From Phycisphaerae bacterium (GTDB lineage Bacteria > Planctomycetota > Phycisphaerae > Sedimentisphaerales > Anaerobacaceae): a DNA stretch of 64,000 nucleotides. A program made the translations under genes and the position numbers. The notes under the pieces are model-generated. The model had not been told where the DNA came from and searched no databases. It saw only the letters and a program-made list of their open reading frames with translations. Position 1 is the first letter of the stretch, and every line of letters starts with the position of its first letter. The DNA is taken from NCBI GenBank assembly GCA_017993835.1, contig JAGOLX010000012.1, positions 1 to 64,000 on the forward strand, in the 5' to 3' direction. This document shows, in pieces, positions 44,972 to 61,380 of the stretch.

Positions 44972-46969
44972 CTACTTGCCTGCTGGAGAAGATGTCTCGA
45001 TTGGCAACTCGGGACGCGCCGCCCACTCGCTCCAACTGCCGTCGTACCAGGACACGTTCGTGTACCCCAGCAACTGCGAGAGCACGACGAATGTCTGACT
45101 GGCCTGGTGGCCCGTGCGGCAGTGGACAATGACCCTGGCGTCTTTGCGCGGGATGAAAGCCTGATACGCTTCCTCCAATTCGGCAATCGGCTTGAGCGCC
45201 ATGTACGTGTCCATCTTGACCACATCTTCCGTGTACGGCCGATTCATAGCCCCCGGAATGTGTCCGGCCCGGGCCTCGTCCGATTTCTGGCCGCTGTAGT
45301 ACTCGGGTGGACGCACGTCCAAGATCACGGCGTTCTTACGCTCTACGGCCTCCAGAACCGTGATGTAGTCCACGGTGAACGCGTCCGTCTGACTCGCGAC
45401 GGGGTATGATGTCGCCGGAATGGAAGGCAGGTCCACGCCGACCGGTCTGTTCTCTGCGACCCATCTCTCATAGCCCCCGCTGAGGATGGCGTATGACGGA
45501 TGCCCCACGCGCTCCAGGGCCACTGCCACTAACGTGGCGTCGTGCACCTTGGCGCCTGGCACGAGGACGATGGTGCTCTGCGGCGTGATGCCCATGAGCG
45601 ACAAATGACGTGCCAACATGTCGGCGGGCAACAACTTGGATCCAACACCACCGACGTTGCCTCTGAGGTGTTCCACGTCCAGACGCAGGGAGCCGGGGAT
45701 GTGGCTGGTGTTGTATTCCGGCTGCGTCCGCAGATCGAGGATCACCAAACCCGGCTGCCCGATTTGGTTGGACAACCATTCAGTTTCCACCAGGCGAGAG
45801 AGTTCTTCCTCCACCGGTGGTTGCTGCGATTGCGCCGGACTCGTCGGCGCGGTCATGAAGTGCTGGCGCCACAGATTCACCCGGGCCGCTCCTGCAACCG
45901 TCAAGGGTTCAGAACGCAACGAGACCGGTTTGAGACAACGCTGAACGAATCCATCCAGTCCATCCGTCAGCATGTAGACGTTGTCGAACCCACTCCGCGC
46001 CAGAGAGTCTCTCGCTTGAGCAGGATGGGTCATGCCATTGGAATACAGCACGATCATCCCCTGGTCGCGATACGGCTGAAGGTAGCCATGCAGTTCGGAC
46101 ATGGGAACGTTCACCGCGCCGCGAATGTGAAAGCTCGCGTACTCCTCCGCCGGCCGAATGTCCACCAGCAGCAAGTCCTGCTCGCCGCGGACCAAACGAT
46201 CCGCCAGTTCTTCAGATTCGATGTGGTCGGCGGCCTGATCCACTTGTTGCAGAAGCTGTTGTTCGGTCGAACCTGCCATGACTGCTGCCGGGCGTGTTGC
46301 GCCGGATGGAGACACCGCCGTCCCCGCAGCCAGGGCCAGCAGGATCAGACTCACTGCCATCACGATGCCAGGTCGTATGCCGCTGGGGTTTCCACGCGCT
46401 TTCTCCACCCTCTCACAGACGGCAAAGAAGATCGCTCCGGCCATGACGAAGATGACCAGAAACGCCCCTTGAGATATGCCCAGGCTGTCGTAGACGAAAA
46501 GCACGCCGCGCTGACCAGCCGTGTACACGGACTCGACGAGGCCGTACGTCTCATTGAAGAGGATACTGCCGAGAACGGTCCCGCACAGGAAGATCAAGGC
46601 ATCCAGCTTGGCACAGGCGACTCCCGCCGCGGCAGTTCCCGGACACCAGCCGCCCATCACAAAGCCGACGCCGAATAGCAGCCCGCCGACGATTTGGGCG
46701 CCATAGACAGTGGGCAGGAGATACACGTCGTCAGCCTGCACAAGGCCGAAGAGCCGGGCGTAGACGAGACCTATTGCCGCCACCAGAACCGCGGTGAACA
46801 TCACCTTGATAACGGTCATGTCCCTGAAATAGAAGACCGCCGCGAGTTTGCGACTGCTGCCGAAGCCGGCCCGTTCGAGCACGAGGCCAAACAGGATGCC
46901 GATGACAAGGGCCGCCGCAAAGGCCTGGCTCGAATCAAGCGCGTCGAGCGAATAGAACGAGCTAATCAT
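44972..46969 (-). CDS. YeeE/YedE sulfur transporter fused to three rhodanese domains
   Basis: A 665-residue membrane protein that probably moves reduced sulfur compounds and handles the sulfur afterwards. Residues 1-240 carry about seven helices of the YeeE/YedE (TsuA-like) family with the conserved Cys motif GGWCPGT (about 106-112). Three rhodanese domains follow. The first (about 258-345) has SNGMTH where the Cys loop should be, and the second (about 395-500) has PGAKVHD; both lack the Cys and are probably inactive. The third (about 530-655) has HCRTGHQAS with Cys617 and looks active. The last two resemble the paired inactive/active domains of classical thiosulfate sulfurtransferases. It overlaps the small YeeE subunit by 8 bases. 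Confidence 0.87.
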   Translation of the reverse strand: MISSFYSLDALDSSQAFAAALVIGILFGLVLERAGFGSSRKLAAVFYFRDMTVIKVMFTAVLVAAIGLVYARLFGLVQADDVYLLPTVYGAQIVGGLLFGVGFVMGGWCPGTAAAGVACAKLDALIFLCGTVLGSILFNETYGLVESVYTAGQRGVLFVYDSLGISQGAFLVIFVMAGAIFFAVCERVEKARGNPSGIRPGIVMAVSLILLALAAGTAVSPSGATRPAAVMAGSTEQQLLQQVDQAADHIESEELADRLVRGEQDLLLVDIRPAEEYASFHIRGAVNVPMSELHGYLQPYRDQGMIVLYSNGMTHPAQARDSLARSGFDNVYMLTDGLDGFVQRCLKPVSLRSEPLTVAGAARVNLWRQHFMTAPTSPAQSQQPPVEEELSRLVETEWLSNQIGQPGLVILDLRTQPEYNTSHIPGSLRLDVEHLRGNVGGVGSKLLPADMLARHLSLMGITPQSTIVLVPGAKVHDATLVAVALERVGHPSYAILSGGYERWVAENRPVGVDLPSIPATSYPVASQTDAFTVDYITVLEAVERKNAVILDVRPPEYYSGQKSDEARAGHIPGAMNRPYTEDVVKMDTYMALKPIAELEEAYQAFIPRKDARVIVHCRTGHQASQTFVVLSQLLGYTNVSWYDGSWSEWAARPELPIETSSPAGK

Positions 46970-47483
46970 TCCATTGCCTCCTTACCAGATAGGCACATCC
47001 GTATCCGCCGACGAACACGCAGATCAGGAAGACGAAACTGCCTGTCATGAGCTGGGCCGAGCCGGTCAGGGCTTGTCCGGACGTGCAGCCGCTGGCGAGC
47101 CGACTGGCAAAACCCACAAGGATGCCGCCGACGAGGGCCAGGATCACACGGGCTCGAGCGGAGGCGCCCGCCGCACGTTCGAGCGATGGGCGGATTCGTC
47201 CGGCCAGAAGCGCGGAGAACAGCCCGCCGATGAAGATGCCCACGAACATGAAGACGAGGTAGTACCGCAGGGGCTGCGTGCCCCAACCGCCAAAGTACTC
47301 GCTGGCCAACGTGTGGCTCCGCAGAATGCACATCTCTGCGCCGGCCGCAATCCGGGCGATGCCCGCCGAGGCGCCGAGACCCGCACCGAGCACCAGAAAT
47401 GAAGCCAGCAAGACCAGGCCCAACAGGACCCCGGCCAGATAGGGGTTCATATAGCGATTCGGTCTGATGTCGTGGTCATCCAT
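46962..47483 (-). CDS. Small YeeE/YedE-type membrane subunit
   Basis: A 173-residue membrane protein of the YeeE/YedE family with four to five helices (about 13-40, 70-92, 108-128 and 140-165) and the conserved ASGCTSGQALTGSAQ block (about 130-144) with its Cys. Split two-subunit versions of this family are known; here the second subunit is the fusion at 44972. The start lies three bases after the stop of the metallo-beta-lactamase gene and the end overlaps the fusion gene, so all three are translated together. Confidence 0.87.
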   Translation of the reverse strand: MDDHDIRPNRYMNPYLAGVLLGLVLLASFLVLGAGLGASAGIARIAAGAEMCILRSHTLASEYFGGWGTQPLRYYLVFMFVGIFIGGLFSALLAGRIRPSLERAAGASARARVILALVGGILVGFASRLASGCTSGQALTGSAQLMTGSFVFLICVFVGGYGCAYLVRRQWND

Positions 47484-47486
47484 GGT

Positions 47487-49478
47487 TTAGCACCCCGCAC
47501 TTTTCTTGGTTGGTGGTGTCGGAACGGGCTTTGCCGGACCCGAGGGAACCGGCGCTGACGAAGGTGCTGCCCGAGGAGTCATAATCGCCGGGGCCGGAGC
47601 GGAGGGTGTCGGCGCCCCGAGTTGGGTCTGCGACCAGTAGGCATCCAGCCCACCAAAGACGGCCTTGATCTGCCGCTGAGTCTTCTGCGAGAGAATGCCC
47701 GCGACAGCCATGGCCAGCGATCCGTCGCGATCCACGATGATGAGGGGGCCGGCGCCGGTCAGCCAGGCCGGATTGCCGATCAGGTCGGCGATATCCACGT
47801 TCACCGCCCCAGGCAGGCTGTAGTCGGCGAACATCGTCGCCGGTCGGATGTCCACCAGATCGTAGGTGCCGGGCAGGTCCAGCATCAACCGGTTCAGCTC
47901 GGCTGCGCAGATTCGCTCCGGCAATGAAACCACCCGCCTGGGCACAGTCGCCACGGTGGTCTTGGTTTCCGCGCCGTATACTGGATAGCCGGCGGCGATC
48001 CACGCCTCGCTGCCTCCTGCCAGACTCGTGACCTTCGTGAACCCTTTCCGCTCCAGGACGCCGAGCGCCATCGTGGATCGGTAGGCGGAATTGCACACCG
48101 CCACCACCGGTTCGGTGGGGTTGAGCTTGCTCGACAAATCGCTCAGCTTGTTCAACGGCAGATTCAGGACGGTCCCGATCCGCAGGCCCATCCATTCATT
48201 CGGCAATCGCACATCGAGAATCAACGGCTCCGTCCCGGCCTGCATCGCAGCGTAGAGCTGTTGCGGCGGCATCAACTCATTCCTGTTGACCGCCAAGCTT
48301 GCCTTTTGCCAGTCGCTGAACAGTACGTACGGGCCCGTGTAGCCCACGCGGTGCAGGCGATGCAGGGCCTCTTTAAGGTCGTCTGTCTCGCCGCACAGCA
48401 CGACGTTGGAACTCCAGGGCACCATGATGCCGACCCAGGTCTCCATGCGACCGCGCAGGGCGATGTTCACCGAGTTGGGGATGTGCCCGGCGGCATAGTC
48501 CTTGGCGTCGCGGATGTCCACGACGTAGTACTTGCCCGAGTCAGTCAACTCCTGTCCCGGCGTCAACTTCGTCGTCAGAGGCTGATCCCAGTTGACCAGA
48601 TCCGGTCCCTTGCGATTCATCGCGGCATTGTGCCCGAAGTACTGCGGCGGTTCGCTCAGGTCCGACAGCACGGCCGTGACGAACTCGGACCTTGCCTTGT
48701 GCTGGAAATAGGGGTTGGAGGTACGCTCTTCCCCTATCGTGGAGTGAGGGCTGTCTCTCAGGTGAGCGCCGCAGAGTGAGCCAGCTCCATGGGCAGGGAA
48801 GACGAGGACGCTATCGGGCAACTTGGAGACTTTGTTCTGCCAGGTATCGAAAGCCATCCCCGCCAGAGCCGCCGCGGTTGTGCCCACTACGAGATCGGGC
48901 CGACCGACGCTGCCGACGAACAGGTAGTCGCCGGTCAGGATCAGTTCCGGCGTGTCCTTGCCCTTGGCGTAGACCAAACCGCTGGTCCCATCCACGACAT
49001 GACCGGGCGTGTCTATGGATTTAACCGTTGCCTGGCCAACCTGGATCGTCGTGCCCTCCTCCAGCGGCACGATCTTGTATTCCGCCTTGCTCTTGGCACT
49101 CTGGTAGATGGGGCACCCGGTCGCCTTGACCATCTCCATATGTCCTGCCACGAAGTCCGCATGGGAGTGCGTTAGATAGAGCCCGATGATCTTAAGGTTC
49201 TGCTGTTTGGCGGTGTCCAGGTACGCCTGAATGTCGCGGCCGGGATCGACCACGAGGGCCTGCCCATCGCTGACCACCATGTACGAATAGTGCGAAAGGA
49301 CCGGCAGGTTGAACTGGATCAGCTTGAGGCCTGGGTACTCGTACGTGTTCACGATTTGATAGCGGGCCGCGTCGTCGCCGTGAGTGGCGGACTCGGCATC
49401 CTGGACTGCCGCTGCCGACTGCCCGGCTGCGGTCACCAACAGCAGCGGCACGATCACACGGAGAACTGCATGCTTCAT
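47487..49478 (-). CDS. Exported metallo-beta-lactamase fold protein with three rhodanese domains (persulfide dioxygenase-like)
   Basis: A 663-residue protein, probably oxidising or trimming persulfides outside the cytoplasm. Signal peptide 1-24. The metallo-beta-lactamase domain (about 40-270) has THSHAD at 103-108 and H113, in the THxHADFVxGH form of MBL-rhodanese proteins, and later GDYLFVGSVGRPDL and FPAHGAGSLCG. Rhodanese domains lie near 315-405 (LCGE, Cys kept), 412-505 (VCNSAYRS, a good active loop) and 525-620 (VDRDGS, Cys replaced by Asp). A Pro/Ala-rich tail ends in SAGC. In the ETHE1 family the persulfide is glutathione-bound; the signal peptide here implies a different, extracytoplasmic substrate. 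It leads a three-gene sulfur operon. Confidence 0.85.
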   Translation of the reverse strand: MKHAVLRVIVPLLLVTAAGQSAAAVQDAESATHGDDAARYQIVNTYEYPGLKLIQFNLPVLSHYSYMVVSDGQALVVDPGRDIQAYLDTAKQQNLKIIGLYLTHSHADFVAGHMEMVKATGCPIYQSAKSKAEYKIVPLEEGTTIQVGQATVKSIDTPGHVVDGTSGLVYAKGKDTPELILTGDYLFVGSVGRPDLVVGTTAAALAGMAFDTWQNKVSKLPDSVLVFPAHGAGSLCGAHLRDSPHSTIGEERTSNPYFQHKARSEFVTAVLSDLSEPPQYFGHNAAMNRKGPDLVNWDQPLTTKLTPGQELTDSGKYYVVDIRDAKDYAAGHIPNSVNIALRGRMETWVGIMVPWSSNVVLCGETDDLKEALHRLHRVGYTGPYVLFSDWQKASLAVNRNELMPPQQLYAAMQAGTEPLILDVRLPNEWMGLRIGTVLNLPLNKLSDLSSKLNPTEPVVAVCNSAYRSTMALGVLERKGFTKVTSLAGGSEAWIAAGYPVYGAETKTTVATVPRRVVSLPERICAAELNRLMLDLPGTYDLVDIRPATMFADYSLPGAVNVDIADLIGNPAWLTGAGPLIIVDRDGSLAMAVAGILSQKTQRQIKAVFGGLDAYWSQTQLGAPTPSAPAPAIMTPRAAPSSAPVPSGPAKPVPTPPTKKSAGC

Positions 49479-50990: not shown

Positions 50991-52412
50991 TTATGGGGCG
51001 GCGAGGCAGATGATTCTGCCCAGGTCCGTGCTGACGAACAACGAGCCTCCAGCGGCAGCCAGGCCGTATGCCCTGCCTTCGACCGATGCGGTCCAGGTCT
51101 CTTCGCCGGTTGCGGCCTCGTAGGCAGTCACCCTTCCCTCTCCCCCGGCAAAGAGGGTGTCGCCCGCCAGAATCAAGGTCAGGGGGCAATCGCTCGCCGT
51201 GCGCCAGACGAAGCACGCGGGCAGTTTCTCCTCGAGCGCGGAGATCTCCGCCTGAGCATTGGCAATCTCCGCGTCGAATTGCCGGCGCGGCAACTCCCCG
51301 GCGTCGCTCGGGAGCTTCTTCTTCTGCTCCTGCAATTGTTGTATGCGCCCTTTCCGGGTATTGACCTCGGTCTGGAGACCCACGTAACTGTCGCGGTCGA
51401 ATGCCTGGAGCCAGCCGTCAGCGTGCAAGTAAACGATGCCGCTGTGAATGACGATCGAAGTGGCCCCGGGGAACGTCACGAGCAGATCGTTCTTGTCGCC
51501 GCCGAAGAATCGCAATTCGCCGTCGGCACGATGGTTCTGGCCGTGTCCGTGGACGAATATCGAGTCCTCCGTCAGCAGTCCGAACACGCCGCCGAAGCCG
51601 GAACCGCCGAGGCTCTGCACCTTGTTGCCGCTGGCGCGATCGAAAACGAGCGGGATCTGGCGTCCCTGCGACAGGTAGAGTCTCGCGGCAGAGGCGAGCA
51701 TCGGACCCTGGGCCGTCATCTGTTCGTATTGCTTCCTGTAAAGACCCGGGCCGTCCGACGCTCCGGTCTGCGCGTCCAGAGCACAGAGGTAGGTCTTCTG
51801 CCAGGGCAGCAGCGACGCAGCGAAGTAGACTCTGGCGTCCTGCACAAGGACGCCGGTGCGACACGGCCAAAGCGACGTGAGTCTGCCATCGAGGGGGATC
51901 TGGGCTCCGCCGGGCGATACCTCGTGGCGCCAGACGATCTGGCCCGAGTCGCAGCGGACACAGTACACACACCCGTCATCGCAGCCGAAATAGAGCTTGC
52001 CGTCGTGGAAGGAGGGCGGCAGCCGGACGGGGCCGTTGGTGAAGACTACCCACTTCTCCCGGCCGCTGGCTGCGTCGAGGCCGTGAACTGCATTGTCGAT
52101 AGAACTGCCGAAGAAGACGCCCCCCTGGGCGACGGTCACATAGAACACGGGATCGAAGTCCCGCATGGACTTGAGGTTGATGAGGCCGGCGTACGAATCC
52201 CACTTGGCCGGGCCGCTCCAGGCAGTCCGCGGATAGTCATTGGGGACGTACTCCCATGCCTTTTGCAGGGGCAGTTGCAATTGCTCGCCCGTGACACCGC
52301 TTCGCCGATTGTCGTGCTGGTATGTGGGCCAATCTTCGGCCCGAGCCGCCGGCGATGCGATCGCCAGCAGGCACATCACGCCAAAGACGCTCACAGAGAC
52401 TCTCGATCCCAT
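50991..52412 (-). CDS. Exported PQQ-like beta-propeller with coiled-coil insertion (split first half)
   Basis: A 473-residue exported protein of the PQQ-like propeller superfamily; no PQQ site or enzyme activity can be claimed. Signal peptide 1-25, ending ARA, then DWPTYQHDNRRSGVTGE (about 27-43). Propeller blades follow (GLDAASGREKWVV, LYFGCDDGCVYCV, SLWPCRTGVLVQD). A charged helical hairpin of about 50 residues (344-394, QLQEQKKKLP, IANAQAEISALEEKL) interrupts the last blades, which resume at LILAGDTLFAGGEG. It matches residues 37-495 of the 1370-residue protein at 56893, including the helical insertion. It is the third gene after a pseudopilin and the second-half propeller, with a gap of 74 bases. 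Confidence 0.85.
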   Translation of the reverse strand: MGSRVSVSVFGVMCLLAIASPAARAEDWPTYQHDNRRSGVTGEQLQLPLQKAWEYVPNDYPRTAWSGPAKWDSYAGLINLKSMRDFDPVFYVTVAQGGVFFGSSIDNAVHGLDAASGREKWVVFTNGPVRLPPSFHDGKLYFGCDDGCVYCVRCDSGQIVWRHEVSPGGAQIPLDGRLTSLWPCRTGVLVQDARVYFAASLLPWQKTYLCALDAQTGASDGPGLYRKQYEQMTAQGPMLASAARLYLSQGRQIPLVFDRASGNKVQSLGGSGFGGVFGLLTEDSIFVHGHGQNHRADGELRFFGGDKNDLLVTFPGATSIVIHSGIVYLHADGWLQAFDRDSYVGLQTEVNTRKGRIQQLQEQKKKLPSDAGELPRRQFDAEIANAQAEISALEEKLPACFVWRTASDCPLTLILAGDTLFAGGEGRVTAYEAATGEETWTASVEGRAYGLAAAGGSLFVSTDLGRIICLAAP

Positions 52413-52486: not shown

Positions 52487-54823
52487 TCATTGCAGCGGCG
52501 AGAACGCCAGTGAGGTCTCCAGCCAGTTGCCGCAACTGCAACCCCCGCCGCCTTCGGGCGACAGGACCATCCCCTCGCCGACAATCGTACTGAGCCAGCA
52601 GCTTGGGCGCAGATTCCGCCAGGTCGTGATGCTGCCGGTAGTGAAATCCCACATCGCGACGCATCGGGCTTGACCCCGGTGGACAAGGGCGTAGGTCGTC
52701 CCGCAATACGTGGCACAGCCCTCGCGCGGGCTCATCGAGGAGGTCACGCGCTGGCCCGTCCCGAGGTCATAGCCGCACGGCTCCAGAAAGACCCTGGCAG
52801 TCAGGACGACCGGGTGCTGCATATGAGCGCCGTGGTTGTCGCCGGACCACGCGTGCTCGGCGTGCCAGAGGAATGCACCGCTGTCCGGATTGAATCGATA
52901 CAAGTGGTACTTGCCCCCGCCGGACGAGGCGATCACGACGGAGTCGTCGGTGCAGGCGAGGTAAAACACGACGATTCCGTCGGCCGTGTCGATGGGCGTC
53001 TCCCAGATCGGCTCGCCTGTCCTCGCATCGAGGCATACGAGGTGCTGATCGGACCACAGCAGTGAGTCATTGAGCCGGCGCGTGGACGACTTCTGGACCT
53101 CCGGATTCCGGGACTCGACGAAGAAAACCCCTTGTTTCCCGACGGCGATCGTCGTATTGATCACCAGGCCGTTGCGTCGAGTCCACATCGGCCGGCCGGC
53201 TGTGACATCGTAGCAGAACAAGGCGTCGCTGCAGACCTTCTCTGTTCCGGCGCCGGAGGTTCTGTCATACCATGCGTCACCACCCCAGAAATCTGTGTAA
53301 CTTGTGTTCTTCTTGACCACGCTGCCGAAGAGCAGATCGTCTCTGCGGGCGACGTAGCCCCAGTCGTACTTCGTGCGGGTATAGCCCTTGGGCAGTTCGA
53401 CGACTCGCTGAAGAGCACCGTCGGAGTGTCCGATCACCCAGCAGTCTCCCTGGATCGCCACGTAAAGGGCGGTGTCATCGGTACACCAGTTGCTGGCATC
53501 TCGCGGCAGATTCACCCGCTGCATGGCTGGGACCTCCAGCGACCAGAGAATCGTCCCATTGTACGCGTCGATGGCCACCATGCGGTTCATACCTTGGTGG
53601 AACAGTTTGCCATTGGCGGCCAGGGGCGCCGGCATGCGGGGGTTTCGATCCATGCCGAAATCGGCGCCCGGCCTGCCCAGCCACTGCACCTGCATCTGAT
53701 CGGTGCGCGTGGCCCCGCCGAGGTCGTCGTGGCTGTTGGCTGTGTTCCCTGCATCGCCATACTGATGGGTCCATGAACCCCAACCCGGTGCCATGGGCTT
53801 GCTCACTACATAGAGTGTGCCGCCAGAGGTCTCTTGCTTGACGTAGCTGATTGACCCTGCGCCGAGCCACGCCTCCACGGCGGGCACACCCGTCTTCATC
53901 TCTGTTGGGCAGGACAGGATCGCCGCGCCTCCTCGCGGTCGCAGGAGGCGATACATCTCAGCAGGCGGTCCCACAAGCTGTCCTTCAACAAGCATGCGTT
54001 CCGAGACGATGAGATTTGCGAAGTTGCCTGGGTAGGGCACGTCCGCAAAGTTGTCCACCTGTTGCACCGCAATCCGCGTTCCGTAGACACCGGCCTGGTA
54101 GAGGCTGTTTCGCACCTGGGCAACGCGGCTGGCGTCATCATCGATTCCGATTACGGTCAGATCGCTGGCAGCGGCCAGTTCATAGGCCAGCACGCCGTCC
54201 GTGAGGCCCCAGACGAGACAGTAGCCCCTCGCCGCGTCGCTGCACTGGAGAATCTCCGCAGCGATGCTCCGCATTCGCTCCGCGTGTTCAGGGTCGCCTG
54301 CTATCGCGACCCCTGCCGGCAGCGGGCGAACGCTGTAGTTCATCGCTGTGTCCAGCTCGTAGGCATCGCCCTTGAGTTCCGTATCGCCCGACCGCTGGGT
54401 GATGCGGTATGCGTACACCCGGTTCGGTTGCAGGCCCTCGATCGTCAGCGCATGGTGTTTCTTGGGCTGCTCGTCTTGGAGCCGATTCTCCAGCAGGCCT
54501 TGATGGGCGCCCTGTAACAGGATGCTCGGCGAGTGCTTCGCCCCTGGTCCGGCCGGCCCGTAGTCCAGAATGGACGAGGTCTCGTCCTCGGTCCACCACG
54601 ACACGACCGCTTGGGACGGTGCGGTGTACTGAACGTACGGCCCGAGCACCACGTGTGTGAAGCCGGATGGAAGCCTGGTCTGCCCGAGCGATACGGTCGG
54701 GGCCAGCGGTCCCCACGCCCCTGCGAGGGCAAGAACGATCAATGCGGCGACAACCACGAGACGCCGTGGATGCTCCACGTTGGTCCTCATCGCGGCTGAC
54801 AACTCCCGGCCATGCATCATCAT
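52487..54823 (-). CDS. Exported Fn3-like / methyltransferase-like / beta-propeller protein (split second half)
   Basis: A 778-residue protein. A membrane or signal segment (about 22-46) is followed by a purple-acid-phosphatase-type fibronectin module (about 55-165: GPYVQYTAPSQAVVSWWTEDE). A degenerate SAM-methyltransferase-like Rossmann domain follows (about 195-320: ARGYCLVWGLTDGVLAYELA, the acidic strand end IGIDDDA, then LRPRGG). A PQQ-like propeller (about 350-765) starts SWTHQYGDAGNTANS and ends GGGCSCGNWLETSLAF. The glycine motif (GLTDG) is not the standard GxGxG, so SAM binding is doubtful. It corresponds to residues 500-1140 of the protein at 56893. GAGG precedes three consecutive ATGs (54823, 54820, 54817); the true start may be any of them. 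The gap to the pseudopilin gene is six bases. Confidence 0.8.
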   Translation of the reverse strand: MMMHGRELSAAMRTNVEHPRRLVVVAALIVLALAGAWGPLAPTVSLGQTRLPSGFTHVVLGPYVQYTAPSQAVVSWWTEDETSSILDYGPAGPGAKHSPSILLQGAHQGLLENRLQDEQPKKHHALTIEGLQPNRVYAYRITQRSGDTELKGDAYELDTAMNYSVRPLPAGVAIAGDPEHAERMRSIAAEILQCSDAARGYCLVWGLTDGVLAYELAAASDLTVIGIDDDASRVAQVRNSLYQAGVYGTRIAVQQVDNFADVPYPGNFANLIVSERMLVEGQLVGPPAEMYRLLRPRGGAAILSCPTEMKTGVPAVEAWLGAGSISYVKQETSGGTLYVVSKPMAPGWGSWTHQYGDAGNTANSHDDLGGATRTDQMQVQWLGRPGADFGMDRNPRMPAPLAANGKLFHQGMNRMVAIDAYNGTILWSLEVPAMQRVNLPRDASNWCTDDTALYVAIQGDCWVIGHSDGALQRVVELPKGYTRTKYDWGYVARRDDLLFGSVVKKNTSYTDFWGGDAWYDRTSGAGTEKVCSDALFCYDVTAGRPMWTRRNGLVINTTIAVGKQGVFFVESRNPEVQKSSTRRLNDSLLWSDQHLVCLDARTGEPIWETPIDTADGIVVFYLACTDDSVVIASSGGGKYHLYRFNPDSGAFLWHAEHAWSGDNHGAHMQHPVVLTARVFLEPCGYDLGTGQRVTSSMSPREGCATYCGTTYALVHRGQARCVAMWDFTTGSITTWRNLRPSCWLSTIVGEGMVLSPEGGGGCSCGNWLETSLAFSPLQ

Positions 54824-54829
54824 GCCACC

Positions 54830-55615
54830 TCAGCGATAACTTTCCTTGGGTTGCTTGTACGCGCGGCCGGTATGACCGTCGAGGTAGCAGATGTTGACGC
54901 CCCCGGCGTTCGCGCCGCCCTGGCGGCCATGCGGGAAGATCCCCCCTTTGCGGAAGAAATCGCAGACGACCCAGGTTTCCGCCGGCCGGGCGAGCGTGCA
55001 TTCCCGATACCGATTCGTCTGGTACGTTGTGTTGTTGGTCTTGCCCAGCCATTCCCGGTGCGTCTCGACGCCCGTGAGTGCGAGCTGTCGGGGCAGGAAC
55101 TGGGACGTGTCGCGCCAGGTGCCCCCTGCTGCTCCCGGCTTGTTCGTCCGGAAACTCCAGTAGATGTAGGTGATGTTGCCCGTCTGGCGGTTCTCCGGCG
55201 TATCGATCACCGAATCCGTGTCGCCGGCGGGCGTGCCGCCATTGGGATCGTTGGCGTTCTGTTCCAGGTAGCGAGCCTGGGGGCAGTAGAAGGCCTCCAT
55301 CAGGGCCCCATCCTGATACGCCCCGATCTTCTCCAGCAGGTCGCGGTGAGCATTGTGTTCCGTCGGCTCCAGGGGATAGCGGGTTCGCCTGTCCTCATTG
55401 GCATAGGCGACCAGGGCGAGGTTGACCTGCCGCAGATTGCTCAGGCATGCAGTCTCGTTGGCGTGGAACCGGACCTTGCCCAGCGCTGGCACCAGAATCG
55501 CCATGAGGATGCCGATGACGGCGATGACAACGAGCAATTCGATCAGAGTGAAGCCGGACCGAACGCGATCTTGTCTTCGCACCGTTCTGCCCTCCCACGG
55601 ATTCTCCAGCACCAT
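54830..55615 (-). CDS. Pseudopilin-like protein with H-X-DG ending
   Basis: A 261-residue protein with a prepilin leader (SG before FTLIELLVVIAVIGILMAIL, about 20-41) and Glu5. The globular part contains CLSNLRQVNLALVAYANEDR (about 58-77), AFYCPQARYLE and, near the end, the ICYLDGHTGRAYK block (about 240-252). AGGAAT lies upstream of the ATG at 55615. It heads the operon with the split propeller genes. The second pseudopilin of this window (24622) also ends a non-secretion operon, so such proteins may serve as surface anchors or scaffolds (inference). Confidence 0.85.
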   Translation of the reverse strand: MVLENPWEGRTVRRQDRVRSGFTLIELLVVIAVIGILMAILVPALGKVRFHANETACLSNLRQVNLALVAYANEDRRTRYPLEPTEHNAHRDLLEKIGAYQDGALMEAFYCPQARYLEQNANDPNGGTPAGDTDSVIDTPENRQTGNITYIYWSFRTNKPGAAGGTWRDTSQFLPRQLALTGVETHREWLGKTNNTTYQTNRYRECTLARPAETWVVCDFFRKGGIFPHGRQGGANAGGVNICYLDGHTGRAYKQPKESYR

Positions 55616-55765: not shown

Positions 55766-55943
55766 TGTGGCCCAGCCGCCCCCGGCTGGGGAAGGACATG
55801 TGGCCCAGCCGCCCCCGGCTGGGGAAGGACATGTAGCCCAGCCGCCCCCGGCTGGGGGAAGGACATGTAGCCCAGCCGCCCCCGGCTGGGGAAAGGACAT
55901 GTAGCTGGGGAAAGGACACCCCCGAGGGCGGGGGTGCCACAGG
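55766..55943. repeat. R1 half-units in tandem, closed by an inverted full palindrome
   Basis: Four tandem units of about 34 bases (TGGCCCAGCCGCCCCCGGCT, then GGGGAAGGACATG) lie head to tail, followed by a shortened unit and the ACACCCCCGAGGGCGGGGGT palindrome in inverse orientation. The units differ only at a few bases (TGTGGCCC or TGTAGCCC; one extra G or A), so the expansion is recent. The array fills the divergent gap between the pseudopilin and lipoprotein-methyltransferase genes. Confidence 0.9.
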
Positions 55944-56046: not shown

Positions 56047-56817
56047 ATGACGAAGCTCCTCCAAGATGCGAACGTGGGCCGATCTTGCCTGGCACTGGCA
56101 GTGTTGACCTTGGTCGTCGGATGCAAAGGCCCGAGTCTTCGCACCTCAGGCGACGACCAGCCAAAGGGGGCTCCCAGAGAGTACACACGAGAGGATGCCC
56201 TTCGTATGATCGGGGCGAGCGAAAAGCGTCTCGCGCCGGTGTACGGTCCTCTGGCGCACCAACTCGTGGAGGACCTGGGCCTTGCCGGCGAGACCGGGAT
56301 TGGGATTGACCTTGGCAGTGGGCCGGGGACGCTGATCATCGAATTGTGCCAGCGGACGAAGATGCACTGGGTCAATGCGGACATCAATCCGCACTTCTTC
56401 CCCTATTTCCTTCAACAGGCCCAGGAGCATGGCTATGGCGGCCGGGTCAGCGCGATCCAGGCCGACGCCCAAGCCCTGCCGTTTCGAGACAACTACGCGG
56501 ACGCGATCGTCTCGCGGGGCTCATTCTGGCTGTGGGACGACCAAGTCGCAGCGTTTCGGGAGATCCGACGTGTTCTCAAGCCGGGCGGCGTGGCCTATAT
56601 CGGGCGGGGTCTTTCTGCGAATCTCCCGCTGGAGGTGGCCGCAACCGTACGCGGCGGGCGAAGCGAGGGGCCGCAGTACGATGTCGCCGCGACCGCTGAG
56701 GAACTGCGCGCGATCATGAAGTCGCTCGGCATAAGGGACTATCGCATCATCCGGCCGAGACAGGACAACGAGGCCGGCTTGAACTACGGCGTCTGGGTGG
56801 AGTTTCGCAAGAAGTAG
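56047..56817 (+). CDS. Predicted lipoprotein with intact class I SAM-methyltransferase domain
   Basis: A 256-residue protein. The N-terminus reads as a lipoprotein signal: LALAVLTLVVGC with Cys near residue 25, then polar residues. The body is a class I methyltransferase fold: motif I GIDLGSGPG (about 79-87), the acidic strand end NADINP (about 104-109), QADAQALPF (about 137-145) and RRVLKPGGVAYIG (about 175-187). All SAM-binding features are present, which is odd for an exported protein because SAM is cytoplasmic. A start further downstream would remove the signal and give a cytosolic enzyme, but there is no good internal ATG. The ATG at 56029 is an alternative. The propeller gene starts 75 bases downstream, so the two are probably co-transcribed. 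Confidence 0.78.
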   Translation: MTKLLQDANVGRSCLALAVLTLVVGCKGPSLRTSGDDQPKGAPREYTREDALRMIGASEKRLAPVYGPLAHQLVEDLGLAGETGIGIDLGSGPGTLIIELCQRTKMHWVNADINPHFFPYFLQQAQEHGYGGRVSAIQADAQALPFRDNYADAIVSRGSFWLWDDQVAAFREIRRVLKPGGVAYIGRGLSANLPLEVAATVRGGRSEGPQYDVAATAEELRAIMKSLGIRDYRIIRPRQDNEAGLNYGVWVEFRKK

Positions 56818-56892: not shown

Positions 56893-59800
56893 ATGAGCCG
56901 ACAACTTCCAGCGATCCGGTTCCGAGTCAGGACAAGTTCCTTGTGGTTCGCCACAACGGTCCTGGGCTGCGCACTGACGCATTGTGTCCCCCAAGTGGCC
57001 GCCGACGATTGGCCGACGTATCGGTGTGATGCCGCGCGCAGCGGAGTAACCGGCGAGAGCCTGCCAGGCGATCTCTCGCTTCAGTGGACGTACACCCCCG
57101 CGCATCGGCCCAAGCCTGCCTGGCCTGCGCCGTCGGAGGAGATGCCTCGCATGCATGCCGACAATGCCTTCCATGTGGCACTGGCCGGCGGTCGTGCGTT
57201 TTTCGGGTCGTCCGTGACGGATGAAGTCTGTGCGATTGACATTGCCTCCGGAGATCTGTGCTGGAGCTTCTTCACGGAAGGCCCGGTTCGCTTCGCGCCG
57301 ACCGTTCGCGATGGTCGCGTCTATGCAGGGTCGGATGATGGCTACGTCTATTGCCTGAGCGCGACGGACGGATCGCTGATCTGGCGGCGCCGTCCGGGAC
57401 CGAGCGACGAGAAAGTCCTTGGCAACGGGCGGATGATCTCCCTCTGGCCGGTCCGCACGAGCGTGCTGGTGGATCGCGGCGTGGTCTACTGCGGCGCCGG
57501 GGTATTCCCTTATGAGGGCATCTACATCTGCGCTCTCAGCGCGGACGACGGCTCCGTCGTGTGGAAGAACGATACGATTGGCGACCGTGCCCACGAGCTG
57601 AGCTACGGCGGCATAACCTGCCACGGCTATCTGCTGGTCTCGGATGACGCATTGTATGTTCCCGCGGGTCGGGCGATGCCCGCCGCCTTCAGCCGACGGA
57701 CCGGGGAGTTCCTGTTCTGGGCCTCGCCCGGGGGCAAGCAAGGGGGCGCCTGGTCCCTCCTGCACGAGGACGAGTTGATTGCTGGCGTGGACCGCTCCGG
57801 AACCCCTCACAAGGTCGCGTACGATCCGAAGACCGGCCGGAGCAAAGGAGATGTCTTCGCCTGGTTCCCGGGATTGGATATGGTGATCCGCGGCAATTTC
57901 GCCTACGTTCTCACGCCCGCGGGTCTGTACGCCATCGACCGGAAGGTGCACGCAGATGCACTCGAGAAGGTCGGGGTTTCGACGAAGACGCGCGAAGAGC
58001 TTGGGAAGGAGCTTGTCCAACTCAGGGAAGGCATCGCCAAGGCCGATGCCGACGGACAGGCGAAGATCCGTCTGCGGATCGACGAAGTCACGCGCCTTGT
58101 CGCCGGACACCTTGCTGAGGAACAGCGACTCCAGAAATCCTGCTGCACATGGCATCTGCCCACCCTGCAATGCCGTTCCCTGATTCTAGCCGGCGACACG
58201 CTTTTCGTCGGCGGCTCGAACCAGGTCCTCGGAGTAGACGCTCGGGCAGGCACGAGAGTGTGGCAGGCAGGGATTGCGGGGAATGCCGTGGGTTTGGCTG
58301 CCGGCAGCGGCTCGCTGATTGTCAGTACCGAGGAAGGCAGCATACACGGTTTCGCAGCCGCTGCACGTGTCGCGCCGAAGGTGACCAGTGTCGCGCACGA
58401 TCCAAACGTCTTCCGCGATCACCCGAAGAGCGACCTGTACCACCACGCAGCTCGCCAGATCGTGGACCGGAGCAATATCGCGAAGGGCTACTGCCTCGTT
58501 CTGGACGGCAACACAGGCCAGCTTGCCTATGAGCTGAGCCGGATCACCGATCTGCAGATCATCGACCTTGTGGAAGAACCAAGCAAGGTCGATATCGCTC
58601 GGAAGAAACTGCTGTCGGTCGGGCTGCTGGGTGCGCGTGTGATTGTGGAGCCGTGGGATATCGATTCCCTGCCCCCTTACTTTGCCAACCTGGTCGTGTC
58701 CGACGACCTGTTGACGACCGGTGCGCGCGAGGCGACGCAGGGGCAAGTGGAACGCGTCTTGAGGCCGGGCGGTGGCACAGCCATCGCAGCCGTCCCAGAG
58801 GGCGCCAGCGGTCTTCAGTGGCGCACGTTCACACGCCCGCCGCTCGAAGGGGTGGCAGGGTGGACTCACCAGTACGGCAATCCTCAGAACACGGCCTGCT
58901 CCCCAGACAGCATGGCCAAAGGCCCGCTGGGCGTGCTCTGGTTCGGCGAGCCCGGCCCGTTGAGCATGGTGGAGAGACATGCCAGAGCGCAGAGTCCCGT
59001 CGCGATGGACGGCCGCCTGTTCGTCCAGGGAGAAGAACTGATCCTGGCGCTGGACGCCTACAATGGAACGTCCCTGTGGCAACGGCGGATTCCGGGTGCG
59101 GTGCGACCTCGGGTCGATGTGGATGGGGGGAACCTGGCTTTGGATCGAGATGCTCTTTATATCGCGGCCTACGACAAGTGCATCCGCCTCGATCCGGCCA
59201 CCGGTCGGACCGTTCGTGTGTACGACTTGCCCGGGGGCGGCAGCGGGAGTTATCGGTGGGGCTGCGTCTCGATCGATCGGAGCATTCTGTTCGGCACTCG
59301 GGCCAAACCTCTGAAGCAGCCCTATGCGACGGAACTGAAGGCCAAATACGCGGACCCCAATGACGACGTTGTCTGGGAGTACACGAGATCGAATGCCGAG
59401 TGGCTTCCCATGGCCAATTACCCGCTCTGGGAGAACTACAGTCCGGCCAAGGGCTCCGTGACCGACAGAATGATGACAGGCGACATGGTCTTTGCCCTCG
59501 ATCCGGACACTGGGAAGGTGCGCTGGACCCATCCGGGCAAGCGGATCGCAAATCTGACCCTGTCCCTCGGAGACGGGAAAGTCTTCTTCGCCGACAGCGC
59601 CATCACGGATGCCCAGGCAGGCCAGGCTCTTGATGAGCGGCGAACGCTGATACGGGACGGGGTGTACGAAGAGACGGAGGACATGAAGAAGGCCCAGGCC
59701 TATGAGTCGTCGGATACGAGGCTCGTCGTGGCGCTCGACGCCCAGAGCGGGGAGAAGCTGTGGGAACGGGTCGTCGATTTCACCGGCTGCTGCGGCGATG

Positions 59801-61005
59801 CCATGGGCTCGGCCTGCCAGGACGATGTCCTGCTGTTCTTCGGCTGCGTCGGCAATCACGACGCCTACCGTTTCAGGGAGAACCAGCTTGCGTACCGCCG
59901 GATTGTGGCCATGTCCGCATCGAGCGGCGCCATCCTGTGGTCGCGTCCGGTCAACTACCGCACGCGGCCCGTGGTCGTCGGCGACAGGATCATCATCGAG
60001 CCTCGAGCGTGCGACCTGCGCACGGGCAGGATTCTGGCTCGTGTCGATCCGATCTCGGACAAAGAGGTGCCCTGGGAGTTCCTTCGCCCGGGGCATACCT
60101 GCGCGATCACCAGCGCCTCCGCGAGCGCCCTGTTCTATCGTTCATCGAGCATCGCGATCTACGATCTGGCGCGCGACGCGGGCGTCGCCCTCTTCGGCGG
60201 CATTCGCCCCGGGTGCTGGATCAACATGATCCCAGCCAATGGTTTGGTGCTGGTCCCGGAAGCGAGCGTGGGCTGCACGTGCTCGTTCCCGCTTCGCGGT
60301 TCGTTTGCCCTGGTGAACAAGCCGCAACGAGCCCAGCCCTGGACGGTATTCATCAACCATACCGACCTGGACGCCAGGGGCCAGATGGTGCCGGGCACGT
60401 ATGGACGACCGGTCAAGCACCTCGCCATCAACTTTGGCGCGCCGGCGGATATGAAGGATGACGACGGCACATTGTGGCTTGCCTACCCCAATCCCAAGAC
60501 GGCGTACAGCCAGAACCATTTCGTCAACTACGGCATCAAGTTCGATCTGAAGGAGGATATCCTCAGAGGAATGGGGTATTTCTGCCGGGATTTCAAAGGG
60601 ATTGCCGTCATGGGGACGGAGAAACCCTGGCTCTTCACGTCCGGCTGTCTGGGTCTGCTCCGGTGCGAGATCCCGTTGCTCGATCACCAGGCGGGCGAGG
60701 TCCCGACCCTCTATACGGTCCGCCTCGGATTCCGAGCCGTCGAAGGCGACAGACCCGGTCAGCGCTTATTCGACATCAGACTGCAAGGCCAGACTGTTCT
60801 TGAAGCCTTCGATATCGCCCAGAGTGCCGGCGGCGCCGGCAAGGCCGTCATCCGGGACTTCACGGACATCGCGGTCGATGACAAGCTCGTCCTGGAGCTG
60901 GTCCCCAGGACCCAGACGCCCGGCGAGTCGGAGGCGCCCCTCATCAACTTCGTGGAGATCGTATGCTCGCACCGTCGGATTCCGGCGACCGCAAAAGGCA
61001 TGTGA
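56893..61005 (+). CDS. Exported fusion: propeller / methyltransferase-like / propeller / malectin-like
   Basis: A 1370-residue exported protein. Signal peptide about 1-37 (ending QVAADDWPTY). First PQQ-like propeller (38-495) with a charged helical insertion (about 355-420, EELGKELVQLREGIAKADAD). A degenerate Rossmann/methyltransferase-like domain (about 527-650: AKGYCLVLDGNTGQLAYEL, IIDLVEEPSKV, ERVLRPGGG). Second propeller (about 656-1125), starting GWTHQYGNPQNTACS. A CxC block VGCTCSFPLRGSFAL (about 1125-1140). A C-terminal malectin-like domain (about 1273-1365: LYTVRLGFRAVEGD, FDIRLQGQTVLEAFDIAQ, INFVEIV), a fold known to bind sugars. AAGGGAGG fixes the ATG. The two genes at 50991 and 52487 are a split, reordered version. 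Function unknown; sugar binding is inferred from the last domain. Confidence 0.83.
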   Translation: MSRQLPAIRFRVRTSSLWFATTVLGCALTHCVPQVAADDWPTYRCDAARSGVTGESLPGDLSLQWTYTPAHRPKPAWPAPSEEMPRMHADNAFHVALAGGRAFFGSSVTDEVCAIDIASGDLCWSFFTEGPVRFAPTVRDGRVYAGSDDGYVYCLSATDGSLIWRRRPGPSDEKVLGNGRMISLWPVRTSVLVDRGVVYCGAGVFPYEGIYICALSADDGSVVWKNDTIGDRAHELSYGGITCHGYLLVSDDALYVPAGRAMPAAFSRRTGEFLFWASPGGKQGGAWSLLHEDELIAGVDRSGTPHKVAYDPKTGRSKGDVFAWFPGLDMVIRGNFAYVLTPAGLYAIDRKVHADALEKVGVSTKTREELGKELVQLREGIAKADADGQAKIRLRIDEVTRLVAGHLAEEQRLQKSCCTWHLPTLQCRSLILAGDTLFVGGSNQVLGVDARAGTRVWQAGIAGNAVGLAAGSGSLIVSTEEGSIHGFAAAARVAPKVTSVAHDPNVFRDHPKSDLYHHAARQIVDRSNIAKGYCLVLDGNTGQLAYELSRITDLQIIDLVEEPSKVDIARKKLLSVGLLGARVIVEPWDIDSLPPYFANLVVSDDLLTTGAREATQGQVERVLRPGGGTAIAAVPEGASGLQWRTFTRPPLEGVAGWTHQYGNPQNTACSPDSMAKGPLGVLWFGEPGPLSMVERHARAQSPVAMDGRLFVQGEELILALDAYNGTSLWQRRIPGAVRPRVDVDGGNLALDRDALYIAAYDKCIRLDPATGRTVRVYDLPGGGSGSYRWGCVSIDRSILFGTRAKPLKQPYATELKAKYADPNDDVVWEYTRSNAEWLPMANYPLWENYSPAKGSVTDRMMTGDMVFALDPDTGKVRWTHPGKRIANLTLSLGDGKVFFADSAITDAQAGQALDERRTLIRDGVYEETEDMKKAQAYESSDTRLVVALDAQSGEKLWERVVDFTGCCGDAMGSACQDDVLLFFGCVGNHDAYRFRENQLAYRRIVAMSASSGAILWSRPVNYRTRPVVVGDRIIIEPRACDLRTGRILARVDPISDKEVPWEFLRPGHTCAITSASASALFYRSSSIAIYDLARDAGVALFGGIRPGCWINMIPANGLVLVPEASVGCTCSFPLRGSFALVNKPQRAQPWTVFINHTDLDARGQMVPGTYGRPVKHLAINFGAPADMKDDDGTLWLAYPNPKTAYSQNHFVNYGIKFDLKEDILRGMGYFCRDFKGIAVMGTEKPWLFTSGCLGLLRCEIPLLDHQAGEVPTLYTVRLGFRAVEGDRPGQRLFDIRLQGQTVLEAFDIAQSAGGAGKAVIRDFTDIAVDDKLVLELVPRTQTPGESEAPLINFVEIVCSHRRIPATAKGM

Positions 61006-61013
61006 AGGCCGCC

Positions 61014-61380
61014 TGTGGCACCCCTGTGGCACCTCTGTGGCACCCCTGTGGCACCCCCGCCCTCGGGGGTGTCCTTTCCCCAGCCGGGGGCGGCTGGGCC
61101 ACATGTCCTTTCCCCAGCCGGGGGCGGCTGGGCCACGTGTCCTTTCCCCAGCCGAGGGCGGCTGGGCTACATGGTCTTTCCCCAGCCGGGGGCGGCTGGG
61201 CTACACTTGTCCCCGTCACGGTCATTTGCCTGACTCTTGCGTTGACCTGTGGCACCCCCGCGGCACCCCCGCCCTCGGGGGTGTCCTTTCCCCAGCCGGG
61301 GGCGGCTGGGCTACACTGTGGCACCCCCGCCCTCGGGGGTGATTCCCGGGCCTCCTCGGCCGGGGGCGGCTGGGCCACGC
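61014..61380. repeat. R1 repeat array with a 12-bp tandem run at its start
   Basis: It begins with four tandem CTGTGGCACCC(C/T) units (61014-61058). Full R1 units follow, with four stem half-units up to about 61203. A unique patch of about 45 bases (61204-61248) separates these from two more full units (61249-61380). The last unit runs straight into the coding part of the next propeller gene. Confidence 0.88.

Follow-up and report, generated by a model that had tools for sequence, protein, structure and literature searches.

SAM chemistry is commonly treated as cytoplasmic. Secreted mycobacterial methyltransferases, such as Rv1988, are SAM enzymes that leave the cytoplasm of their producer, and they are thought to act after entering host cells, with SAM provided by the host. 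Our literature search, which covered mostly papers available without subscription, found no relevant report of periplasmic or secreted bacterial SAM methyltransferases or of an exported family such as the one described below.

The structure closest to the protein described here (P0001), both by sequence (190 bits) and by fold (Foldseek E = 6.6e-21, 29% identity), is 3dlc. This entry is the crystal structure of MMP1179 of Methanococcus maripaludis and contains SAM (PMC5289526).

The methyltransferase gene and its surroundings

The window is a stretch of 64,000 nucleotides from a Phycisphaerae bacterium (contig JAGOLX010000012.1). P0001 is encoded by an open reading frame of this planctomycete, which starts with ATG at 56047 and runs through the stop codon to 56817 (256 aa). 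The features of the gene and its neighbours are as follows.

56047..56817, + strand: P0001, a predicted lipoprotein with a class I SAM-dependent methyltransferase domain (open reading frame, Methyltransf_11 match, gene carried by 22 of 89 family genomes)
56047..56124, + strand: predicted lipoprotein signal of type II, comprising residues 1-25 and the cysteine (Cys26) of the lipobox LVVGC (sequence, homologues, selection, signal peptidase II gene)
56125..56187, + strand: predicted disordered tether, residues 27-47 (pLDDT <50 at residues 25-37; regular structure starts only at 48)
56188..56808, + strand: methyltransferase domain, residues 48-254 (AF2 pLDDT mostly >90; nearest fold 3dlc, E = 6.6e-21)
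56893..61005, + strand: exported PQQ-like beta-propeller protein, 1370 aa, directly downstream of P0001 (PQQ_2, E = 3.2e-39)
58393..58842, + strand: decayed domain of methyltransferase fold within the propeller protein of 1370 aa (99.4% in hhalign with the intact family)
54830..55615, - strand: pseudopilin with an N-terminal methylation motif, divergent neighbour (N_methyl, E = 7.9e-9)
52487..54823, - strand: second propeller protein, 778 aa, on the divergent side (PQQ_2, E = 4e-10; weak Methyltransf_25 match)
53894..54274, - strand: decayed domain of methyltransferase fold within the propeller protein of 778 aa (profile search and profile comparison)
50991..52412, - strand: PQQ-like propeller protein, 473 aa (PQQ_2, E = 4.7e-17)

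The N-terminus of P0001, MTKLLQDANVGRSCLALAVLTLVVGC, is followed by a polar stretch beginning KGPS and then by the methyltransferase domain. It consists of a positive n-region, a hydrophobic core and a lipobox, LVVGC, at residues 22-26, which is the sequence definition of a bacterial lipoprotein; the sequence-only reading had correctly described a hydrophobic N-terminus ending in VVGC ahead of polar residues. When the codons of the gene were shuffled 20,000 times, an equally hydrophobic N-terminal 11-mer appeared in 0.17% of the shuffles, and such an 11-mer together with a lipobox appeared in none (0/20,000). The host genome possesses a signal peptidase II gene (Peptidase_A8, E = 5.4e-27, at G000:C93). 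Lipidation of P0001 at Cys26 is predicted. The AlphaFold model of P0001, built with 37 homologues, showed a helix at residues 12-23, disorder at 25-37 and a domain with pLDDT mostly >90 at 48-254, the layout of a tethered lipoprotein.

P0001 matched Pfam Methyltransf_11 with E = 1.8e-19 and 70.6 bits, above the cut-off of 21.2. The elements of a class I SAM site are present, namely D88, G90, G92 and G94 (56308-56328) and the acidic residues D112 and D140, and the clade motif SRG lies at 156-158. As judged from the sequence, P0001 therefore has the class I methyltransferase fold. DLGSGPG, NADINP, ADAQALPF and LKPGG, claimed earlier to be intact, are indeed so, at residues 88-94, 110-115, 139-146 and 177-181, respectively. 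The SAM-site and clade residues were invariant or nearly so among the 37 homologues. Across the exported rows of the wider alignment, G90, D112, D140, S156 and R157 were present in 60-61 of 61, and D88, G90, G92, G94, D112, D140, SRG, E172, R175, G186 and G188 were kept in nearly all. The same residues were kept in all four of the fusions to solute-binding proteins (SBP) that were tested. In some Armatimonadota members, position 92 or 94 is occupied by S or A.

The domains within the propeller proteins are related to P0001 and decayed, as had been claimed from the sequence: profile-profile comparison of the propeller-protein domain with the intact family gave a probability of 99.4 (E = 2.1e-21), and the SAM-site residues are replaced. 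In the copy within the 1370-aa protein, DLGSGPG has become VLDGNTG and SRG has become SDD. Since the SAM site is intact in the stand-alone protein and lost in the propeller copies, selection is likely to maintain a functional SAM-type pocket in the stand-alone protein.

Other features of the window were also recorded. A 21-bp imperfect palindrome, GCCCAGCCGCCCCCGGCTGGG, occurs in arrays that flank the methyltransferase/propeller block (55770-55890 and 61079-61311); the host genome contains 67 exact copies of it and none of the reversed control. A rhodanese-rich cluster at 44972-49478 encodes a rhodanese-repeat membrane protein, another membrane protein of 173 aa and a metallo-beta-lactamase that contains three rhodanese domains. 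Two TonB receptors of the host genome are located elsewhere, beside sensor-kinase-like genes and not near the P0001 locus.

Start codon and export signal

Close homologues of P0001 were found in 22 of the 89 genomes of the host's family, and all 22 bear an export signal, of which 17 have a lipobox and five are signal peptidase I-like. The lipoboxes of P0001 homologues end in GAGC, AAGC, VAGC, FAGC and similar sequences. On the tree, the lipobox and signal peptidase I types were swapped at least eight times while export was retained throughout, indicating that the conserved trait is export rather than the lipid. Export signals were also present in relatives recorded as Hydrogenedentota, Victivallales, Omnitrophota, Verrucomicrobia, Armatimonadota and Zipacnadia; these distant exported relatives are metagenome bins, and the records labelled Balneolales and Bacteroidales cluster with Armatimonadota, possibly through misbinning. 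The median N-terminal hydrophobicity was 2.86 for exported members, whose starts were picked by hand, and 1.44 for cytosolic relatives (p = 3e-12).

We considered whether the true protein begins at the internal Met53 and is cytosolic, the signal being an artefact of annotation. Met53 is conserved in most close homologues, and AGGA lies 10 bases ahead of it in the window gene, which is without a clear Shine-Dalgarno sequence at 56047, and ten bases ahead in one homologue (L003). However, Met53 is missing in several homologues and aligns with a helix position of the cytosolic 3dlc, so that its conservation is better explained as structural. Further, of 39 loci, 27 have a Shine-Dalgarno-like motif ahead of the signal-bearing start, compared with about 6 of the 27 internal start codons found, the window gene being among the exceptions. 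In twelve closely related pairs, pooled pN was 0.21 and pooled pS 0.47 over the signal and tether region, and dN/dS of the signal region was mostly 0.1-0.6 (with a value of 1.27 in one pair and saturation in another). The signal region of the P0001 homologues is therefore translated and under purifying selection. Homologues that start past the Cys were looked for as evidence against the signal being part of the protein, and the homologues instead retain the signal or switch its type; relatives are, in addition, fused to exported domains. A start at Met53 is accordingly extremely improbable, and we rejected a mis-annotated start on the basis of the homologue signals, the start-motif counts and the selection on the signal region.

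Side of the membrane, fusions and neighbouring genes

In nearly all exported members, the n-region ahead of the hydrophobic stretch is net positive. A conserved twin arginine was not found in the n-region; the window protein has GRS, and RR occurs in some homologues only. Tat export of a folded, SAM-loaded enzyme was rejected for this reason. Sec substrates cross the membrane unfolded. Given positive, Sec-like n-regions without a conserved twin arginine, P0001 should cross unfolded and would be unable to carry SAM along.

The cofactor problem would be solved if the N-terminus were an uncleaved anchor that holds the enzyme on the cytoplasmic face, where it would use cytoplasmic SAM at the membrane. 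None of our tool results supports this arrangement, which the earlier reading had offered as one of two options, and the positive n-region predicts the opposite orientation, with the N-terminus in and the domain out. Moreover, a lipobox or signal peptidase I site is conserved, some homologues have a cleavable signal peptide, and relatives are fused to periplasmic and outer-membrane domains. We consider the inner-face arrangement very unlikely. Of the two options, SAM or a SAM-like ligand outside the cytoplasm remains as the candidate.

In some exported relatives, the domain is fused to uptake domains. One open reading frame of 995 residues (L050) encodes a signal, the methyltransferase, CarboxypepD_reg, a TonB plug and a barrel, in this order. 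Six Armatimonadota proteins consist of a signal, an SBP_bac_11 domain, which is ModA-like, and the methyltransferase. A cassette on one strand (L172:5521-12055) contains a TonB receptor, two tandem SBP_bac_11-methyltransferase fusions and an LAT-type amino-acid permease. These fusion partners, the TonB receptor and the solute-binding domain, can work only outside the cytoplasm. The AlphaFold model of an SBP-methyltransferase fusion had a pLDDT of 44.5 from six sequences, and no use was made of it.

Three further architectures were seen at the loci of relatives. An exported ankyrin-repeat protein (L107, at L168:8691-10535) has the methyltransferase as its C-terminal domain, and an exported tandem methyltransferase (L102, at L165:9720-11033) has a first copy that is intact and a second that is partly decayed. 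At L063:3483-5753, a fusion of SBP_bac_11 with an Alginate_exp-type outer-membrane barrel lies a few genes ahead of an exported methyltransferase.

In L178 (Verrucomicrobia), L070 (Balneolales) and L175, the last from another family of the window organism's class, the gene immediately upstream of a stand-alone member encodes a TonB receptor, and an amino-acid permease gene adjoins members in L064, L171, L172, L181 and L182. Propeller proteins (13 of 48 loci; odds ratio 5.4, p = 6e-4) and pseudopilins (16 of 48; odds ratio 4.1, p = 1e-3) were enriched at a distance of up to two genes from the methyltransferase. TonB receptors (5 vs 0) and permeases (6 vs 0) were enriched at this distance as well, but the comparison is partly circular and biased in their favour, because some of their markers had been taken from these neighbourhoods. 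For solute-binding genes, the 48 loci gave no significant enrichment near the methyltransferase (p = 0.19); the solute-binding proteins that do neighbour relatives resemble ModA.

Two additional types of neighbour were noted. At L048:9904-11415, a zinc-finger anti-sigma-like protein with a PQQ-like propeller is encoded beside a 187-aa sigma-factor-like gene, upstream of a lipoprotein methyltransferase. An exported protein of 410-450 aa with the motif ACRYNVRE.GFVDL is encoded near the methyltransferase in L040, L041, L043, L035 and L049, and the copy tested had no Pfam match.

Possible role and relation to known methyltransferases

The analyses revealed a translated signal, conserved export, an intact SAM site and, in relatives, fusions to periplasmic and outer-membrane uptake domains. 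A conserved and intact exported enzyme of SAM type implies either that SAM reaches the periplasm, with SAM and a SAM transporter available outside the cytoplasm, or that the exported site has been reused for another ligand. Because the exported enzyme occurs in several lineages and is sometimes fused to or located beside uptake proteins, real chemistry or ligand binding in the envelope is probable.

We propose that P0001 would be synthesized as a prelipoprotein of Sec type, receive its lipid at Cys26 and stay attached outside the cytoplasmic membrane through a short flexible tether. The folded domain outside may bind SAM or a close nucleoside relative, and a ligand in periplasmic uptake or processing would probably be methylated, or at least held, by it. 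The propeller proteins with decayed copies would be likely partners or scaffolds, and a candidate for SAM/SAH exchange is the LAT-type permease encoded next to several relatives. Taken as a whole, this explanation, in which an exported MMP1179-like branch lipidated at Cys26 handles a ligand in the envelope together with propeller partners, appears to us somewhat probable; the uptake fusions and transporter neighbours that speak for it belong to relatives, not to the host genome's own locus.

As to the substrate and the cofactor supply of the exported methyltransferase, a more specific scheme may be considered, in which, in several phyla, a ligand of TonB-receptor/SBP uptake is methylated in the periplasm, SAM entering and SAH returning through an LAT-type inner-membrane exchanger. 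We hold this scheme only tentatively and regard it as rather doubtful. We judge it unlikely, to a slightly greater degree, that the domain is exported but non-catalytic and acts by binding a small ligand, nucleoside-like or other. We know of no SAM in the periplasm or elsewhere outside the cytoplasm, decayed relatives reside in the exported propellers next door, and fusions to solute-binding proteins and TonB receptors would suit ligand capture. However, the stand-alone proteins and SBP fusions of even distant lineages retain the SAM site and the SRG, APVY and YIG motifs, which the propeller copies do not, and binding alone would not obviously require all of these motifs.

P0001 scored below the curated cut-offs of all the known equivalog families compared (DVU_1556, CpaM, ArsM, UbiE and BioC). 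The best NCBIfam match was the DVU_1556 family (NF045667), with 46.3 bits over the SAM core against a curated score of 155; no export has been reported for that family. CpaM, the corrinoid protein-associated methyltransferase (NF043040), has the same core fold and matched with 26 bits against a cut-off of 180, and the arsenite methyltransferase ArsM (PRK11873) matched with 29.6 bits against 263. Plasmid records contained distant methyltransferases only. Unlike the secreted mycobacterial enzymes, the exported relatives of P0001 come from environmental lineages.

A quick maximum-likelihood tree was built from 107 domains. One of its branches (SH-aLRT 87, not starred) has all 61 exported rows of the stand-alone type on the same side, and the solute-binding-protein fusions were placed next to them. 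This is consistent with, but does not prove, a single origin of export. No export signal was seen in the archaeal relatives (L140-L159). MMP1179 differs from P0001 in being a cytosolic archaeal protein without a signal. The two proteins match over their full length in sequence and fold, and they have FAP(I/V)Y, D.GSGPG, SRGS.FFW.D and YIGGG in common; by its SRG and YIG/GG motifs and the full-length match to 3dlc, P0001 belongs to the MMP1179-like clade. On the most economical reading, P0001 belongs to a branch of these MMP1179-like class I methyltransferases that is exported and handles ligands in the envelope.
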